IMG/VR virus record: IMGVR_UViG_3300030329_002218
Span: 1 to 20,125 of that record
Direction: 5' to 3' (one strand)
Length of the DNA stretch: 20,125 nt
Source of the DNA: a virus
How positions within the stretch are numbered: the first letter of the stretch is position 1; every line of letters starts with the position of its first letter. The notes beneath the pieces were generated by a model. That model was not told where the DNA came from, ran no database searches, and worked only from the letters and a program-made list of their open reading frames with translations. Below, in pieces: positions 2,217 to 20,125 of this stretch. A program made the translations under genes and the position numbers.

Positions 2217-2690
2217 ATGTCATTAACATTAAACGCAACAATAACTGGTCCCACTAGCAAGTGGGAAGAGGTGCCGGTAGGCACATATCAGGGAGCGATT
2301 GTCGATCTTGAGGCACTCGATCCCGTGGACGGCAAACCAAAGGGAGTCTTGAGGATGACCTTTGAGTTGGATCGAGTCGGAGAGAACGGTCAGAACCAGA
2401 CCATCAGGAGGTCGTTTCACAAGGTGCTGGACAACGAGAAGGCAGCGTTGCGCTTGTTCATCAAGCGGACGTTGCAACTCAAGCCAGAGGGTGAGTTCGA
2501 TCTGGAGAAGGAACTCATCGGGAAGTCCATCACGGTGAACGTCGAGCAGTTCAAGACTGACGATGGGATGAAGTCCTATGTGGACACCGACTTGTCTGGC
2601 CCACCGCAGGGCGAGGGGTTCAAGCCGACAGGCAAGTACATTCGCCAGCAGGACAGGAAGAAGGATGGCGATGACGACATGCCCTTCTGA
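2217..2690 (+). CDS. ssb: single-stranded DNA-binding protein with bacterial SSB-type tail
   Basis: A 157-residue protein. The body alternates strands and turns as an OB-fold would (VPVGTYQGAIVDLE, GVLRMTFELDRV, GKSITVNVEQF), resembling DUF669-type phage ssDNA-binding proteins more than canonical SSB. The last residues, after a hydrophilic linker, are GDDDMPF, almost the DDDIPF end of E. coli SSB that docks onto host repair and replication proteins. It would coat single strands during phage DNA replication. The start is fixed by GGAG 6 bases upstream. It is first in the run exonuclease, resolvase, primase-helicase, which supports the assignment. The OB-fold is inferred from pattern; the acidic tail is seen directly. 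Confidence 0.75.
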   Translation: MSLTLNATITGPTSKWEEVPVGTYQGAIVDLEALDPVDGKPKGVLRMTFELDRVGENGQNQTIRRSFHKVLDNEKAALRLFIKRTLQLKPEGEFDLEKELIGKSITVNVEQFKTDDGMKSYVDTDLSGPPQGEGFKPTGKYIRQQDRKKDGDDDMPF

Positions 2691-2703
2691 AAAGGACGAC
2701 ACC

Positions 2704-3396
2704 ATGTCTAGGGTCACCACAACCAATCCTGACTATGACTTCCCTCTCAAGAGGACTCATTTTGTCTTCGATATTGAAACGGGTTCACTCCCGTCCGACG
2801 AGATCGAAGCCTATTGTCCTAAAATTAAGCCCAGCAAGAGCATCAAGGATGCTGCGAAGCAAGAGGCATACATTGAGGGCAAGCGTAGTGAATGGTTTGG
2901 TAAGGCGGCACTCTCCCCGGTAACGGGGAGGGTGCTTGTCATAGGTGTCAGGGTGGAGGGTGTTAACACCATGTTCCACGTTGACGAGAACGGCAGCGAG
3001 AAGGGGGTGCTTGAAGCCTTCTTCGACATGGTGAGAAAGCACCGTGACCAGAAGTGGGTCGGTCACAATTGCCATGCCTTCGATTGGCCTTTCCTGAGAG
3101 GTCGTGCGATGGCAAATGATGTACACTTTCCCGTGGGCATCATCACCAGCATCTGTGGCCACCGATGGGTGAACTACGGTGCCAACTGCCGGGACACCAT
3201 GCTTGCGTGGAACCCCGACCCGACATCCAGAATTAGCCTGAGCAACTTGGGCAGGGTGTTGGGCTTGGGGACCAAGCTGGGCGAGCATGGATCAAGATTC
3301 GATGAGTTGTACGCAGAGAACCCCGACCTTGCCCTCAAGTATTGTGAGAGGGACTTGGAGTTAACTGACGACATATGGCAACGAATCGGAATATAA
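2704..3396 (+). CDS. DEDDy-type 3'-5' exonuclease (DnaQ/PolB proofreading-like)
   Basis: A 230-residue protein with all three exonuclease motifs. Exo I is FDIETG (D23, E25), Exo II is HNCHAFDWPFL with D127, and Exo III is YCERDLELT with Y213 and D217, the tyrosine marking the DEDDy subclass. It would degrade single strands 3' to 5' with two metal ions. It resembles the proofreading domain of family B polymerases but has no polymerase domain, so it acts alone or in trans. I chose ATG 2704 over a longer frame starting at 2578, which would lie inside the SSB-like gene. A GGACGA stretch lies 7 bases upstream. It overlaps the next gene by 22 bases. A perfect 12-base palindrome lies inside it at 2959-2970. 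Confidence 0.85.
   Translation: MSRVTTTNPDYDFPLKRTHFVFDIETGSLPSDEIEAYCPKIKPSKSIKDAAKQEAYIEGKRSEWFGKAALSPVTGRVLVIGVRVEGVNTMFHVDENGSEKGVLEAFFDMVRKHRDQKWVGHNCHAFDWPFLRGRAMANDVHFPVGIITSICGHRWVNYGANCRDTMLAWNPDPTSRISLSNLGRVLGLGTKLGEHGSRFDELYAENPDLALKYCERDLELTDDIWQRIGI
2959..2970 (+). repeat. perfect palindrome GGTGTTAACACC
   Basis: A perfectly self-complementary member of the GGTGTNNACACC family found in four other places. Here the reading frame gives GVNT, not GVDT, so the DNA dyad is kept while the peptide changes. Confidence 0.5.
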
Positions 3397-3866
3397 GGTA
3401 CATGGCATGTGACCCCGGAGTGTCCGGTGGATTCTGTTACAAGGATCAGTACGGCACACTCAAGGTATACAACATGCCGAAAGGCGACGACCGGGAGCAA
3501 CGTGCCCGACTGATCGTGGATTACCTGACTTTCCTGAGACCGGAAAACATCTTCATCGAGAGGGTGCAGGGTTACCACGGCAGTCGAAGCACGGGGCACA
3601 CCTCGTTCGTGCTGGGAGAGAACTATGGAACAGTCGTTGGTGCCTGCCTAGCGGTGGGCACCAACGTCATCCCCATCTCACCGCAGTCATGGCAGAAGAC
3701 GCTTGGCCTGAAGCGGGAGAAGGGCATGTCCCAGTCGGAATGGAAGCGGCACCTGAAGATGTGTGCGGTGGACATGTACCCAGCCGGTATTGGTGTCACG
3801 TTGAAGAACGCTGATGCCCTTTTAATTTTTGAGGCGGCACTCAGGCAGCGTGAAGGACTTGGATGA
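3375..3866 (+). CDS. RuvC-like Holliday junction resolvase
   Basis: A 163-residue protein of the RNase H-fold resolvase group. The first acidic motif is ACDPGVSGG (D13), followed by FIERVQ (E62) and a C-terminal KNADALLIFEAAL (D147, E153), the usual places for the RuvC catalytic carboxylates. The glutamine-rich PQSWQKTLG matches the conserved central part of phage RuvC-like proteins. It would cut four-way junctions during phage recombination or before packaging. It starts 22 bases inside the exonuclease gene and overlaps the primase-helicase gene, so the three are one translational unit. No strong ribosome site is visible; GGAG is 15 bases upstream. Confidence 0.8.
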   Translation: MATNRNIRYMACDPGVSGGFCYKDQYGTLKVYNMPKGDDREQRARLIVDYLTFLRPENIFIERVQGYHGSRSTGHTSFVLGENYGTVVGACLAVGTNVIPISPQSWQKTLGLKREKGMSQSEWKRHLKMCAVDMYPAGIGVTLKNADALLIFEAALRQREGLG

Positions 3867-11225: not shown

Positions 11226-13308
11226 AACCGAAGACCACTTGGTCCATCACAAGGATAAGGTGGATATAGATGACCTGACTTTTGAGTACCGCAGAAGTTT
11301 AACTGACGGTCATGCGCTAGAACGGATACAGCAGGCAGATGACGTTCGTTATGCGAGGTGGAACTCGCAAACGGATGACTTTAAGAAACATGCTAGTGCG
11401 ATGACCGAGGGTACTCAGCCATTCCCCTTCGAGGGGGCGGCAGACAACAGGATCAGGCTTGCCGACGAAACCATCAACCAACTTGTGGCGACCCTGATGA
11501 ACGGGTTCCAAAAGGCGCAGTTGAAGGTGGGGGCAACGGAGTCCAACGACACCGAGGCTGCGGCGAGCATGAACACGTTGATGCGTTGGTTGATCGGCAC
11601 GAAGTTATACCATGAGATGAGGCGTGAAGCTGAACTCATGGCACAATATTCGATGCAGTACGGTTGGTCGGCAATGTTTGTGGGCTGGGAGCAGCAACAA
11701 CAGATGATGCCGATGAAGGTGACGCTTGAGCAGATCGTTGAAATGGCTCAAGCTGATCCAGCCTTCGCAGACTTTCCAAGGATGATACTTGACCCGGAGC
11801 AGGAGTCGGTGGTGACCGACATGCTGATCACTCAGGTGGACATGAAGCGGCGACCGGCGAAGAAGGTTATAAGGGAGTTAAGGGAAACCGGGGAGAGTTC
11901 GATCCCGGTGGAGTATACTGTGGCCAACAAGCCGTTGATGGTTGCTTGCCGTCCTTATGACGAGATCAGTTTCCCCCCTGAAACAACAACCCTGCAAAAA
12001 GCACGGGTTATATTCCGCAAGCAGTATATGTCCGAGGTTGAACTGCGAAGCATGATCAACGACGACGACTGGAGTAGCGACTGGGTGGATGAGGTTATAA
12101 AGACGACCGGTAGATCGAGCGACTTTAGCGACATCACCACCAGCAAGTCTGCATTGAATCCTGACTCCATAGATAGGCGGGACAACTTGGTGGAGGTGGT
12201 GTGGGCTTACACCAAGCAATTAAATGAGCAGGGGGTGCCTGCTGTGTATTGCACGGTGTTCGCACCATTGGTTCAGCGTGATGCCTTGGGCAAGGCGTTG
12301 TATGCGAAGCATGAGATGCTGGACTACAACCATTGCCGGTATCCGTTTGTGGAGTTCAAGCGTGAGGTGATCAAGCGCAGGGTGATTGAGAGTCGCCCGA
12401 TAACTGAAGTGATTGGAAGCTACCAGACGTTCCTTAAAAACCAGATTGACTCGATCATGGATCGGACCTCGTTTGAGACGTTGCCTGCCATTGAGGTGAA
12501 CAAGAGGTTGGGCTTGGTTAACAAGATTGGGCCTGCGGTTCAGTTGCCGGTCACCAAGGCTGGGGATTATTCGTTTATGAAGCCACCGGCAGGGGTGCCC
12601 AGTACGGCATTTGAAACGATAGCCTTTATTGAGAAGGCAGTTGCCAAGTATTTCGGTTTGACACACCCCGACATACCCCCGCAGATGACGATGATGACGC
12701 AGCAGTCGATGATGAACAACTGGTTGACGGTGTGGACCGAGATATACCAGATGATGTTCCAGTTGACGTTGCAGTATCTGGATGATGAAGACTTGATGAA
12801 GGTGACCGGGGCACAGGTGCCCATTAACCGGGACAAGGAGATGCCCGACTTTGTGCTGAAGTTTGATGTGAGTGATTTGGATCAGGATTACGTCCTGAAG
12901 AAGATGGAGATCATTGCACAGCAACTGGTGCCATTGGATGTGGGTGGCTCAATCGAGCGAAATGCATTGATTGAAAAACTGGTCAGGTCGATTTCGCCTG
13001 ATTTCGCTGATGAGATACTGACCGACCAGAAGAGTGCATCGCAAAGGATGTACAACGAGGTCAAGGGCGAGATGGGCGGCATGATGTTGGGCTTTGAACC
13101 TAACTACACCGAGAACGATCCAAGTGCTGGCACCAAGCTGCAATATGCACAGGAGATTAGCCAACGGAACCCGAAGGTGCAGGAGGCTGCGGAGAAGGAT
13201 GAGTTGTTCAGTCAACTGATCCAGAACTATATGCAGAATCTGCAAATGAGCGTGACGCAAGAGCAGAACGCTCAGATCGGACGCATCGGGGTCCAACCCG
13301 TAACATGA
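11215..13308 (+). CDS. portal protein
   Basis: A 697-residue protein directly after the terminase group, long for a portal but normal for podovirus-like phages. Supporting features are the N-terminal helical region, GAADNRIRLADETINQLVA and the following helices, repeated aromatic and acidic strands of the wing/clip region (VVWAYTKQLNEQGVPAVYCT), and a long helical C-terminus rich in methionine and glutamine that could form the crown or barrel (QLIQNYMQNLQMSVTQEQNA). As a dodecamer it would form the DNA channel at one vertex and bind terminase. The start overlaps the HTH gene by 11 bases. The call rests on position, size and pattern; I did not have a profile search. Confidence 0.85.
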   Translation: MKNETEDHLVHHKDKVDIDDLTFEYRRSLTDGHALERIQQADDVRYARWNSQTDDFKKHASAMTEGTQPFPFEGAADNRIRLADETINQLVATLMNGFQKAQLKVGATESNDTEAAASMNTLMRWLIGTKLYHEMRREAELMAQYSMQYGWSAMFVGWEQQQQMMPMKVTLEQIVEMAQADPAFADFPRMILDPEQESVVTDMLITQVDMKRRPAKKVIRELRETGESSIPVEYTVANKPLMVACRPYDEISFPPETTTLQKARVIFRKQYMSEVELRSMINDDDWSSDWVDEVIKTTGRSSDFSDITTSKSALNPDSIDRRDNLVEVVWAYTKQLNEQGVPAVYCTVFAPLVQRDALGKALYAKHEMLDYNHCRYPFVEFKREVIKRRVIESRPITEVIGSYQTFLKNQIDSIMDRTSFETLPAIEVNKRLGLVNKIGPAVQLPVTKAGDYSFMKPPAGVPSTAFETIAFIEKAVAKYFGLTHPDIPPQMTMMTQQSMMNNWLTVWTEIYQMMFQLTLQYLDDEDLMKVTGAQVPINRDKEMPDFVLKFDVSDLDQDYVLKKMEIIAQQLVPLDVGGSIERNALIEKLVRSISPDFADEILTDQKSASQRMYNEVKGEMGGMMLGFEPNYTENDPSAGTKLQYAQEISQRNPKVQEAAEKDELFSQLIQNYMQNLQMSVTQEQNAQIGRIGVQPVT

Positions 13309-13526
13309 ACCCAGACGATCTAATCACATTCGGATTCAAGGAGAGGAGTGCCCTTTACGAGGCCACAATGCGGCACCTAGAGGCTTTTATCGAGGGAGAG
13401 GTCCTTGCGGTGCAGGACAGGGAAAACATCGGTGAGGGGCGAATACACACATCGGGAAGGCTGGCGGGTCTTTCTGACTTTCGGGATCACCTCAACTTCT
13501 TGAGGGAACAGGCCCAGAGGAATTAG
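13305..13526 (+). CDS. small hypothetical protein after portal
   Basis: A 73-residue protein with an ATGA overlap with the portal stop. It is mainly helical (LYEATMRHLEAFIEGEVLAV, then SDFRDHLNFLREQAQRN) with a short glycine-rich loop (GEGRIHTSGRLAG) between. No family is recognised with certainty; small proteins of this kind often follow the portal gene in podovirus-like genomes. It is the last gene of this + strand unit, and the bidirectional terminator follows 45 bases later. Confidence 0.6.
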   Translation: MNPDDLITFGFKERSALYEATMRHLEAFIEGEVLAVQDRENIGEGRIHTSGRLAGLSDFRDHLNFLREQAQRN

Positions 13527-13571: not shown

Positions 13572-13604
13572 AACCCCCTCCCTTTCAGACCAAGGGAGGG
13601 GGTT
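13572..13604. terminator. bidirectional intrinsic terminator
   Basis: A perfect 13-bp G/C-rich stem (13572-13584 with 13592-13604) with a 7-base loop. On the + strand it is followed by a T-rich GCTTGTTTACTT; on the - strand the stem is followed by TTTTCAG counting the closing A/T pairs. It lies between convergent genes ending at 13526 (+) and 13615 (-) and would stop both. Confidence 0.85.
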
Positions 13605-13614
13605 GCTTGTTTAC

Positions 13615-13815
13615 TTAATTGGTAAACTTGATGGTCTTGCCGACCCTTGGCAACAAGCTGGGGTCGGTATGCTTTCTGATCAAGGTCTTCACCTTCTCTT
13701 CAATGAAGTCCAAGGTCCCCTTTGACACACAGGTCCATTCGGTTTGTGTTCTTGCGTCTTTGTTCTTTGCTGTTTCCAGCACGAACCCTTTAACTGCTTT
13801 TCTGTTTATTAGCAT
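13615..13815 (-). CDS. small basic protein, the only - strand gene
   Basis: A 66-residue protein. It runs AVKGFVLETAK, a polar stretch, then VSKGTLDFIEEKVKTLIRKH and GKTIKFTN. The order V-S-K-helix-GKTIK resembles the middle of small histone-fold proteins of phages and bacteria (ISK..helix..KTIK), but the third helix that should follow is missing, so I call it a possible truncated histone-fold or other DNA-binding protein with low confidence. It has its own leader on the - strand: a perfect TATAAT (13860-13865), a hairpin and a TAAC element ending 5 bases before the ATG. Its opposite orientation and separate promoter suggest a different expression time, perhaps regulatory. Confidence 0.65.
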   Translation of the reverse strand: MLINRKAVKGFVLETAKNKDARTQTEWTCVSKGTLDFIEEKVKTLIRKHTDPSLLPRVGKTIKFTN

Positions 13816-14103: not shown

Positions 14104-14131
14104 CCCGTCACAACGGTGACGGGTTTTCTTT
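14104..14131 (+). terminator. intrinsic terminator ahead of the structural genes
   Basis: A perfect 8-bp stem CCCGTCAC / GTGACGGG (14104-14111 with 14116-14123), 4-base loop AACG, followed by TTTTCTTT. No + strand gene lies between the previous terminator and this one, so it would end a short RNA or read-through, or protect the structural genes from upstream transcription. Confidence 0.8.
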
Positions 14132-17667: not shown

Positions 17668-17856
17668 ATGGACACAGAAAAAGCAAAACAAGCGTTGGAC
17701 ACGTTGTATGTGGCGGCAGGGCAGGCAGCACTTGCTAGGCCGCAACACGAAGCAGTAACTGCCGCAGCCAAAGAGTTGTTGGAGCAGATTGAAAGCTGCG
17801 AGAAGTGCGAAGGAACGACCCCTGTTGAGGTTGTCCCTCCAAGCAAGGGCAAATGA
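17668..17856 (+). CDS. small helical hypothetical protein
   Basis: A 62-residue protein. Two helices (KAKQALDTLYVAAGQAALA and VTAAAKELLEQIESCEKCE) are followed by a proline-rich end (TPVEVVPPSKGK). The C-x2-C pair could bind a metal, or be chance. I prefer ATG 17668, with AGGAGG about 12 bases upstream; TTG 17647 in the same frame would add 7 residues. Its stop overlaps the next start (ATGA). Confidence 0.5.
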   Translation: MDTEKAKQALDTLYVAAGQAALARPQHEAVTAAAKELLEQIESCEKCEGTTPVEVVPPSKGK

Positions 17857-18014
17857 AATGGGACTTGGAACTGATCAAGGTTATCGGGGCGACTGGACTC
17901 GGCACGGGAAACATGCTGTTGGACATAGACGTTATCCTGAAACTCCTGATCAGTTTCCTGTCACTTTTGTATGTTGCGAAGAAGACCTATGATCTTTATT
18001 TCAAAAAAAAATAA
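17853..18014 (+). CDS. small membrane protein, holin-like candidate
   Basis: ATG 17853 overlaps the stop before it and opens 53 codons ending at TAA 18012. Residues ~26-42 form a hydrophobic span (IDVILKLLISFLSLLYVA) flanked by charged residues, and the C-terminus is basic (KKTYDLYFKKK). That is the make-up of small holins or of their antagonists. The next gene is also a small membrane protein, and a spanin-like pair follows, so I read it as part of the lysis cassette. No homology is claimed. Confidence 0.5.
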   Translation: MKWDLELIKVIGATGLGTGNMLLDIDVILKLLISFLSLLYVAKKTYDLYFKKK

Positions 18015-18017
18015 ATT

Positions 18018-18188
18018 ATGCTGAAGTCAAAAACATTGTGGGGAGCGGTGACTGCCATAACCGGCAGTTTGTCGGCTTATTTTTTGGGGGAGATTGAGCT
18101 TGGTGCCATGTTGCAGATTTGTGTAACGAGTGCGCTCAGTATTTTCCTGAAACATGCCGTGAAAAAAGCTGAAGACAAGGCAGGCTAA
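18018..18188 (+). CDS. holin-like membrane protein
   Basis: A 56-residue protein ending at TAA 18186. Two moderately hydrophobic helices (LWGAVTAITGSLSAYFLG and LGAMLQICVTSALSIFL) are joined by a short turn with two glutamates and followed by a basic tail (KHAVKKAEDKAG). The SKTLWGAVTAI...GEIELG pattern is like that of small phage holins I remember next to endolysin genes. It would form membrane pores at lysis. It is 4 bases after the previous small membrane gene, with no clear ribosome site apart from an A-rich stretch. Confidence 0.6.
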   Translation: MLKSKTLWGAVTAITGSLSAYFLGEIELGAMLQICVTSALSIFLKHAVKKAEDKAG

Positions 18189-18193
18189 AAACA

Positions 18194-18496
18194 ATGCTTG
18201 GCTGGTTGTTAGCTTTACTGCGAGCCGTTCCCTCGTTGGAACGGCTTTTTGTCAACATAGGTGAGCAATTGAAGCAGCACCGTGCGAACGAGAAGCATGA
18301 AGAGGAGTTGGATCATATTGACGCTGCCATTGCTGGTGCTAGGGGCGGGGTGCAGGACAGTCGAGTATCAGGACTTGAATGGAGTCTCGACCCTGACCGC
18401 ACACCCGGAGTTCCCCATAGCGGCACAACAGGCACCGGAGTTCACTCGATCAGCATTGCGGGAGGTGGCGAGGCTGAACCGAATCATAAGGAGTAA
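18194..18496 (+). CDS. small phage protein overlapping a lipoprotein gene; possible inner-membrane spanin
   Basis: A 100-codon frame from ATG 18194. The first ~50 residues (MLGWLLALLRAVPSLERLF, then a charged helix QLKQHRANEKHEEELDHIDA) look like a small phage protein with an amphipathic or membrane-associated N-terminus, a type I have often seen in lysis regions. The part after residue ~55 is low complexity (GTTGTGVHS, GGGEAE), consistent with sequence shared with the lipoprotein gene in the next frame. The N-terminal helix carries R10, E16 and R17, so a clean membrane span is doubtful. With an embedded lipoprotein gene the arrangement is that of Rz/Rz1, hence the tentative call. A terminator-shaped hairpin lies in codons 10-19. 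Confidence 0.5.
   Translation: MLGWLLALLRAVPSLERLFVNIGEQLKQHRANEKHEEELDHIDAAIAGARGGVQDSRVSGLEWSLDPDRTPGVPHSGTTGTGVHSISIAGGGEAEPNHKE
18223..18250 (+). terminator. terminator-shaped hairpin inside the coding frame
   Basis: A perfect 9-bp stem AGCCGTTCC / GGAACGGCT (18223-18231 with 18238-18246), 6-base loop, then TTTT with T18246 closing the stem, so five T in a row. It is 35 bases after the holin-like stop and inside the codons for RAVPSLERLF. It could be a partial terminator that lowers expression of the spanin and tail genes. Confidence 0.7.
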
Positions 18497-18500
18497 ATAA
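18297..18500 (+). CDS. Rz1-like outer-membrane spanin lipoprotein
   Basis: A 67-residue protein read in the +1 frame within the gene at 18194. It begins MKRSWIILTLPLLVLGAGC, a basic n-region, a hydrophobic core and a lipobox (LGAG-C19) for signal peptidase II, so mature protein would be anchored in the outer membrane by C19. The mature part is ~48 residues (VEYQDLNGVSTLTAHPEF and so on) and ends in a basic helix (ALREVARLNRIIRSK). Small size, lipobox and embedding in a membrane-protein gene are the hallmarks of Rz1. ATG 18297 is preceded by GAGAAG; GTG 18282 is in frame too. It implies a host with an outer membrane. The stop overlaps the next start (TAATG). Confidence 0.7.
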   Translation: MKRSWIILTLPLLVLGAGCRTVEYQDLNGVSTLTAHPEFPIAAQQAPEFTRSALREVARLNRIIRSK

Positions 18501-20125
18501 TGCCAATACCTGATCCACTATCTGACGGTGATGCAGCTTTCGTTGGCGTAAACATGAACGTGGAACCGTCTGTGGTGCCGCAGGGTCATGTTGCATTGGC
18601 CAACAATGTTAGATTTGAAAAAGGCAAAATCAAGACCCGTCCCGGCACCAAGTGCATGGATTGGTCGGGCATTGAGGCATATGAGAACAAACCGTATGCG
18701 GCGAATGATAAGGTTTTGTTTTCGGGAAAGAAGGGAAGCAACCTTAACGTAAGTGCTGGCACGGTAACATTGGGGAATGTAGCCAATGCAGTATCGGATT
18801 CCAATTTCGCCACCCAGACCACGTTAAGCACCAGCACGACACCTTGGGAGTTGGACGACAACCAGACCCCGGCCAACACGAACGGTGCGTGGACCATAGT
18901 CAGCAATGCCGCAAAGATAGCCGAGCCGTCAGGGTCTGTGACGAACTTGGTTCAGGATATTTCTGCTTCGGAAAACACCCAGTATGGTGTGGACTTGGAG
19001 ATTAAAAGTTTTATCCCTGCGGTCACGATCAAGGGAACGACAACGAATGGGGTGACGACCGGATACGGGATGTCTACCAAGGTTGTTAAGTATGGGGCAA
19101 TGAGCATTGCCTCATCGGATAACGGGGCCGGGGTTTTTGATGCAACCAAAACTGCCAAGTTTGAGGTGGAGCCTTTAACGGAAGCATTTCCAGCGGGAAC
19201 GGAGATTGTTTGGTACTACACCGATGAAACGAGCGACCACACGACCTCCACGGTTAGGGCGAAGTTTACTCTTTCTGTTGCTCACCTTGTGGGCGGCACT
19301 TATTTAAATGGAACACTTACAGCAGGCGACGATTCAACAGATAACACCGGCACCGTTGCTGCCGATGCCAGCGGCTTTAAGGTTCAAACGCTAACGGTTG
19401 AAACCCTGCACTCTCCCTCTTCTGGTAATGCCTTGATTAAGGGAAGGGCTATTTATTTTGACAACGGGGCAAGCATGAACCTTACGGACAACTCTGGTTC
19501 AGGTGCTTCCACGGTGGAGGGGACTGTTCACTTGAGCCAATTAAAGATTGGCACCAAGGGTTACGGTGAGTTGAGGGTCTTTATTGGCAACACAGGGAAG
19601 GGTTCCCCCGTCAGGATAACGGATGGTCCCTTCCCAAAAACCATCAAGGAGATTATAACTTCCGGTGGGGGTAGTCCTGAAAAGATCAAGATTCAGGCTA
19701 ATGAGCATTGGGCGGGCGAGATTGATAGCGTCAGCTTGACCGAGCCTGCATCGGTTGTTCTGACCAGCACAACCGGACCGGCATCGAACCCGGATATAGG
19801 GCCGGTGTTCAAGCGCAAGTCGAATGCCAATGATGAAATCAAGCCGCCGCTGCACATTGTGAACGGGTCACAGGTCCTCGATGGGACCAACTGGGAGGAA
19901 ATAACGGGACACTCCATATTTGGCCTAGGCACGATTTACGGGGTGGGGACGTTTAATGACCCCAACGGAAACGAAACTGTCCTTGTAGCCACCAATGCGG
20001 GCCTTTATGGGGCATCTGAGAATAGTTCTTTCAGCCAAATCCCCATGCCAACCGGTGAAGCCTTTGCCGAGCCGGTTGAGTTTGTTCAGGCATTCCATGA
20101 AGTCCTGATCTTTCGGGGGTTTGAC
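18500..20125 (+). CDS. large tail protein, N-terminal part; nozzle-like (partial)
   Basis: ATG 18500, with AAGGAG 9 bases upstream, opens a frame that has no stop to the window end, 542 codons. The start (VGVNMNVEPSVVPQGHVAL, then NNVRFEKGKIKTRPGTK) follows the pattern of T7 gp12-type nozzle proteins, in which a short N-terminal strand is followed by an N-x-R-x-GxxxTRPG segment before a beta-propeller. The last ~110 visible residues (HIVNGSQVLDG, IFGLGTIYGVGTF, VLVATNAGLYGA) look like propeller blades. Between them about 260 residues of threonine- and serine-rich beta-structure (residues ~110-370) look like inserted carbohydrate-binding or immunoglobulin-like domains. I infer a tail tube/nozzle or host-recognition protein; the nozzle identity is tentative. 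Confidence 0.65.
   Translation, partial: MPIPDPLSDGDAAFVGVNMNVEPSVVPQGHVALANNVRFEKGKIKTRPGTKCMDWSGIEAYENKPYAANDKVLFSGKKGSNLNVSAGTVTLGNVANAVSDSNFATQTTLSTSTTPWELDDNQTPANTNGAWTIVSNAAKIAEPSGSVTNLVQDISASENTQYGVDLEIKSFIPAVTIKGTTTNGVTTGYGMSTKVVKYGAMSIASSDNGAGVFDATKTAKFEVEPLTEAFPAGTEIVWYYTDETSDHTTSTVRAKFTLSVAHLVGGTYLNGTLTAGDDSTDNTGTVAADASGFKVQTLTVETLHSPSSGNALIKGRAIYFDNGASMNLTDNSGSGASTVEGTVHLSQLKIGTKGYGELRVFIGNTGKGSPVRITDGPFPKTIKEIITSGGGSPEKIKIQANEHWAGEIDSVSLTEPASVVLTSTTGPASNPDIGPVFKRKSNANDEIKPPLHIVNGSQVLDGTNWEEITGHSIFGLGTIYGVGTFNDPNGNETVLVATNAGLYGASENSSFSQIPMPTGEAFAEPVEFVQAFHEVLIFRGFD

Follow-up and report, generated by a model that had tools for sequence, protein, structure and literature searches.

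A candidate intrinsic terminator was found inside a small protein-coding gene of a 20,125-base virus record (IMGVR_UViG_3300030329_002218, the whole of which is called the window below). It is probably a partial one-way (Rho-independent) terminator that is overprinted on codons 10-20 of an i-spanin-like gene and perhaps suppressed by translation. Relatives indicate that the hairpin is under selection: in a group of uncultured phages it persists although the sequence around it varies. One stretch of DNA thus appears to serve as protein code and as regulatory switch at once. The features are listed in Table 1.

Table 1. Features of the candidate lysis region and the upstream terminator-like site of the window (d, d'Aubenton score).
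Feature	Positions	Strand	Remarks
Small membrane protein ORF (MKWDLELIKV...), holin-like by position	17853..18014	+	start set by eye
Putative holin ORF, 56 aa, upstream of the hairpin-bearing gene	18018..18188	+	
i-spanin-like ORF, 100 aa, candidate terminator in codons 10-19	18194..18496	+	78 non-redundant loci including the window
Candidate terminator hairpin, 9-bp stem AGCCGTTCC/GGAACGGCT, loop CTCGTT	18223..18246	+	
T run of five	18246..18250	+	7 T in 50 of 64 carriers
Lipoprotein ORF, 67 aa, o-spanin-like, +1 frame, overlaps the host ORF	18297..18500	+	MKRSWIILTLPLLVLGAGC...
Downstream gene, first 542 codons, runs off the window	18500..20125	+	
Second forward terminator-like hairpin, after portal, before the likely scaffold start ATG 14181	14104..14123	+	d = 21.0

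The hairpin and its coordinates were confirmed. It extends from the third base of codon 10 to codon 19 of the i-spanin-like ORF, and its perfect stem with a 6-nt loop is followed by TTTTG. The preliminary description spoke of five T, which holds if the T closing the stem is counted and not otherwise. Three perfect inverted repeats with stems of 9 bp or longer and loops of 3-8 nt exist in the window, against an average of 0.56 over 100 dinucleotide shuffles, and in none of these shuffles is such a repeat followed by at least four T among the next five bases. Given the peptide RAVPSLERLF and the codon usage of the window, the chance of nine pairs (G-T allowed) together with a T run of at least five is about 0.001. 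The hairpin energy is -16.8 kcal/mol in the window and ranges from -11.9 to -20.1 over 46 distinct regions (-19.9 in L061 and L064), and the z-score of the local 101-nt fold is -2.0. The window has a short T run (TTTTTGTC, d = 14.6), and CTCTTTG stands at this place in L002, a near relative. A standard terminator scanner run on the window did not report the hairpin, presumably because the extension of the stem by G-T pairs consumes a part of the T run. A known RNA family was rejected as the identity of the hairpin, as Rfam gave no gathering-score match in the window and none at E up to 1 in positions 17900-18600. This single sequence would not be convincing by itself; the relatives are.

The window genes that match known families are those of the terminase and an SU10-type capsid protein; the match of the portal is weak and below the Pfam cut-off. 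No near DNA match to the window was found in the phage collection, and C75C1 is the only named phage matched by its terminase (30.6%). The protein of the hairpin-bearing gene has no tblastn match at E up to 1 among cultured phages, and the proteins of two relatives have only short matches in Microbacterium phages, with E about 3-5. No relatives were found in the genome contigs searched. The small membrane protein upstream has one strongly hydrophobic segment (hydropathy 2.12 over 19 residues, computed from position 17856 on) and no Pfam or PHROG match. The putative holin has hydropathy 1.79, no Pfam match and a single insignificant PHROG match. It ends five bases before the i-spanin-like ORF, and each of the seven longer relatives examined has a homologue of it beside the spanin-like gene. 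The ATG of the downstream gene shares one base with the lipoprotein stop; this gene is called a tail gene solely from its place and from repeats in relatives.

The identity of the gene pair as spanin-like is plausible. As in the two-component spanins described in PMC6139136 (lambda Rz/Rz1, P2, T7), a small ORF is combined with an overlapping lipoprotein gene in the +1 frame. According to the same source, the genes of such pairs may be embedded, overlapped or separated; the word 'terminator' is absent from its main text. The pair also adjoins a putative holin, and in 76 of the 78 loci the +1 frame is open for 55 codons or more, from stop to stop. The lipoprotein ORF has a signal peptide with a lipobox cysteine, judged by eye (LVLGAGC in the window; LTAC, TAGC or AAGC in relatives), although LVLGAGC is not a textbook lipobox and was missed by a simple pattern. 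Unlike known two-component spanins, the host ORF has a weakly hydrophobic N-terminal segment (19-residue hydropathy maximum 1.33 in the window and 1.26-1.66 in six relatives) and no Pfam or PHROG match. Its predicted structure is a poor model (mean pLDDT 54.8) with helices at residues 3-11 and 13-52. Thus the name 'spanin-like' given in the preliminary description suits the architecture of the pair, whereas the host ORF is no more than a candidate i-spanin.

The window coordinates and sequence also support the terminator shape proposed there, its place within a coding gene and the overlap with a lipoprotein gene. However, the lipoprotein gene is not entirely contained in the host ORF, as it ends 4 nt past it. 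Likewise, two proteins and a terminator do share one stretch, but no base serves all three functions, since the lipoprotein start comes only after the hairpin.

Relatives were sought with protein alignments (54 and 73 loci), in which every codon is permitted, avoiding a bias towards the stem. The window protein as the query yielded three loci, and a search with the lipoprotein only yielded 71. Many loci are the same contigs recovered by more than one search, and merging of identical regions left 78 non-redundant loci, the window included. A DNA pattern search that required the stem found 16 stretches, all from the hairpin-bearing gene. It was treated as a lead, and its loci (L005-L016, L018) were excluded from the counts, as was L004, which is the window itself. 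L140 was dropped, the hairpin region not being reached.

At least eight of the nine stem pairs are formed in 64 of the 78 non-redundant loci, and all nine in 45; these 64 carriers are kin, hence not 64 independent cases. Among the 14 loci without the hairpin, 13 have seven pairs and one has four, and a T run of five occurs in none of them. Such a run of at least five T is present in 55 of the 64 carriers, while in the other nine there is one T before C or G. The fairest fraction comes from the lipoprotein-anchored search, where the hairpin is present in 50 of the 70 loci holding the region (40 of 54 non-redundant ones), because the peptide-anchored searches demand a VPSLERLF-like motif and thus cannot count losses fairly. 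Indeed, all 14 hairpin-less loci come from the former search. In eight of the nine longer relatives searched the pattern occurs at one site each. Preservation of the stem where relatives keep the protein, which the preliminary description had named as a check, was thus observed (64 of 78), the exception being a 13-member clade with the peptide KAIPSLERL.

The element has the properties of a canonical intrinsic terminator: a stable GC-rich stem of about 8-10 bp, a small loop and a U run directly 3' of the stem, the T run being on one side of the hairpin only. The value of d at the hairpin is positive in 62 of the 64 carriers (median 28) and in none of the 14 other loci; in L046 and L174 the stem is kept and the score is below 0. 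The only forward sites with d > 0 in the window are those at 14124 (21.0), 18246 (14.6) and 13603 (1.9). From -1500 to +800 relative to the hairpin, a span wholly reached by 48 of the 78 loci, no other forward sites with d > 10 were found save in L045 and L063.

The main evidence for selection on the hairpin is synonymous constraint, and covariation is secondary. In the 64 carriers, Ala11 is encoded by GCC in 63 and Arg17 by CGG in all 64. Phe19 is TTT in 61 of the 62 carriers having phenylalanine at this position, and codon 20 is TTG or TTA in 56 of 64. In the loop, Pro13 uses all four codons (CCA 22, CCG 19, CCT 15, CCC 8) and Ser14 uses both TCN and AGT. The same is seen at the invariant control residue Ala31 (GCG 25, GCA 23, GCC 13, GCT 3). 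Fitch changes at third codon positions were counted on a tree built from the flanks of 61 carriers, with L034, L036 and L047 excluded for their short flanks. The stem codons Ala11, Val12, Leu15, Glu16 and Arg17 have 1, 8, 0, 9 and 0 changes respectively, and codons 18 and 19 have 5 and 1. The loop codons 13 and 14 have 21 and 24, and the mean over 23 other codons is 16.5 (range 8-21). The difference between the stem and tract codons and the other codons is significant (Mann-Whitney p = 6e-5). The changes at Val12 (T or C) and Glu16 (A or G) partly keep the pairing and partly yield a C.A mismatch. On a tree with 75 tips, Ala11 has 2 changes versus 21 at Ala31, and Arg17 has none versus 21 at Arg34.

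Compensatory synonymous changes, the other expectation of the preliminary description, are few, and the single clear two-sided change alters the protein. Between the third base of codon 12 and the second base of codon 16 the window has a T-A pair. Ten loci (L061, L082, L084 and others) have C-G there, the pairing having been regained through the replacement of Glu16 by glycine. This change is essentially confined to one clade. Two of the ten loci (L089, L159) have the codon GGT, creating a T.T mismatch at the next pair, and L108 has Gly16 with T, giving a T-G pair. In 16 carriers the C that ends the Val12 codon stands opposite A in the second position of codon 16. Altogether 19 of the 64 carriers have one broken pair: C.A in 16, T.T in two, and one in L034. 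In the covariation tool, the fraction of paired cells, the cells with two-sided changes and the covariation score exceed those in all 500 shuffles. The count of pairs changed on both sides and the count of pair types are no higher than in the shuffles, 454 and 319 of the 500 reaching them.

The 13 loci of the exceptional clade keep KAIPSLERL and have no terminator; thus the peptide does not force it. They keep homologues of the holin and the lipoprotein and have a different downstream gene. The longer record of this clade, G005, has no match at E up to 1e-3 to the capsid, portal, terminase and tail proteins of the window. In L099, L100, L105, L107 and other members, the same codons fold into a shifted stem, CCA.ACCGT / ACGGT.TGG, without a T run. 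This stem could be ancestral, a relic, or an RNA element of another kind.

The order terminase, portal, terminator, scaffold, capsid, putative holin, embedded terminator, lipoprotein, tail was observed in G001, G003 and G006. In G009 the order from terminase to tail is the same except for the lipoprotein, for which there was no tblastn hit. The terminator-like site at the portal-scaffold boundary is likewise present in these four records, and in G002 it is weak (d = 0.8). Two forward terminator-like sites flank the capsid-holin block, which is therefore bracketed in the window and in the longer relatives with this order. Downstream of the element, 45 of the 64 carriers have a tail gene like that of the window, and five could not be told. 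The other 14 have a convergent terminase there, about 490 aa long and without significant similarity to the window terminase. In this group the embedded terminator is the sole forward site with d > 10 found in the scanned span, and the spanin-like pair comes after it. The preliminary description suggested that the element sets the level of late lysis and tail genes. This fits the window and the 45 carriers, but not the tail part in the 14 loci with the convergent terminase; the genes common to all carriers beyond the terminator are the spanin-like pair. In L147 the convergent terminase ORF (2316-3788) and the spanin-like ORF (2001-2354) share the final 39 bases of the latter, and thus transcripts of both genes would collide there.

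The likely mode of action is as follows. Polymerase leaving the capsid-holin block would produce a GC-rich hairpin with a U run about 30-60 nt past the start codon of the gene, and a fraction of transcripts would stop at the U run. The remaining transcripts would read through into the spanin-like pair and whatever follows, in the window the tail gene. By occupying the 5' arm, a ribosome entering the host gene would suppress termination. As described in PMC5021804, ribosomes can keep intrinsic terminator hairpins from forming. In 45 of the 78 loci the start codon of the host gene overlaps the stop of the gene before it, and as the hairpin starts about 30 nt past such a start, a ribosome should prevent its formation. 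Termination itself, its partial efficiency and its relief by translation are what we infer from these features. In some relatives CGGCT was seen by eye at the upstream stop; it could pair with the 5' arm.

A broader scheme is possible but considerably more tentative. The holin-spanin cassette may carry a translation-gated terminator in the first 20 codons of the i-spanin, which would gate the spanins and everything downstream and would have dictated a part of the protein. If so, only transcripts whose ribosomes reach the i-spanin gene would continue, translation of the lysis genes would license expression of the spanins and of the genes beyond, and a cassette with its own terminator would occur in phages with unrelated terminases.

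Another possibility is that the hairpin acts in translation or mRNA stability, influencing initiation of the host ORF or the lipoprotein or protecting a 3' end, and causes no termination. The position agrees with this, as the start codon is 27-36 nt before codon 10 in all 78 loci (with starts picked mechanically) and the hairpin is upstream of the lipoprotein start. Also consistent are the two loci that keep the stem without a good U run (L046, L174) and the shifted stem without a T run in the terminator-less clade. However, such an element would not need the U run that is kept in 55 of the 64 carriers, and for a translational hairpin the preferences at Phe19 (TTT, 61 of 62) and codon 20 (TTG or TTA, 56 of 64) would be superfluous. 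Hence this role is unlikely. On the other hand, one could suppose that RAVPSLERLF is conserved for the protein and that its preferred codons form a palindrome by accident; no other invariant stretch of the protein is as long, and CGG is the arginine codon in the terminator-less clade as well. Codon bias alone is largely refuted by codon usage, since the invariant Ala31 and Pro13 use all codons, by the chance of about 0.001 under the codon usage of the window, and by the near-zero third-position changes, which are confined to some stem and tract sites. The C-G change, which alters the protein, also argues against it, and this explanation is very unlikely.

A role of the dyad at the DNA level, as an operator, recombination or packaging site, is highly improbable despite the near-perfect palindrome with one site each in eight of the nine longer records. 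The stem tolerates G-U-type changes and C.A mismatches, the loop is variable and the T run is one-sided. Indeed, 37 of 57 distinct rows have G-U at one pair of the stem, which suits RNA better than a DNA dyad. Finally, CTT TTT TTG 3' of the hairpin could be a site of frameshifting or transcriptional slippage, fusing the N-terminus of the host protein to the lipoprotein, as the second gene is in the other frame and the +1 frame is open through the hairpin in seven of the 78 loci. In the remaining 71 there is a stop in the frame of the lipoprotein between it and the hairpin, so that an open path into the second frame does not exist and this candidate was rejected. Moreover, the lipoprotein has its own start and signal peptide, and the T run of the window is just five bases long. 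Slippage is thus extremely improbable.

The candidate terminator differs from canonical intrinsic ones in that a translated gene contains the whole of it, close to the 5' end, that the genes it would limit include the one holding it, and that it is kept across phages with unrelated terminases. In phage T7 the terminator T-phi is located downstream of the capsid gene. LUZ100, a T7-like phage, is described as having a terminator immediately downstream of the capsid gene (PMC10134795). As here, a forward terminator parts the capsid block from later genes, but the element described above is about 1.8 kb farther from the capsid gene and within a lysis gene, and 14 carriers have a convergent terminase as the next gene. 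Late terminators of SPP1, as described in PMC6316719, are mostly intergenic. Predicted terminators in coding regions were reported for rsxC and narY of E. coli, where ribosome coupling affects rsxC in vivo and narY has no in vivo effect (PMC5021804). These also are predicted hairpins within an ORF; however, they belong to single host genes, whereas the present element is kept across many phage loci. No conserved terminator in a spanin gene was found among the literature matches listed (titles and abstract openings of open-access papers).

The element is well supported as an instance in which a regulatory RNA signal is overprinted on coding sequence and kept across many phage loci, beside an already overlapping gene pair. 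It offers a testable prediction of how phages with little intergenic space part the expression of capsid, lysis and tail genes. It also suggests that such sites can escape terminator scans that skip coding sequence or extend stems via G-T pairs.

A conserved small basic protein (KDPRLARAGVSGFNKPKRTPNHKTKSHVVVAK..., L113 1275-1577) accompanies the lysis cassette. It is encoded upstream of the cassette in one clade and downstream in another, and in L089, L151, L157 and L159 it lies downstream of the lipoprotein. Two further inverted repeats were noted in the window. One is a perfect 10-bp repeat with a 7-nt loop at 1582-1608, inside the ORF 1541-1741 and without a T run. The other, of 13 bp, at 13572-13604, is situated between the gene 13305-13526 and the reverse-strand ORF 13615-13815. 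Its d is 17.6 on the reverse strand and 1.9 on the forward strand, and it is perhaps a shared terminator of convergent genes.
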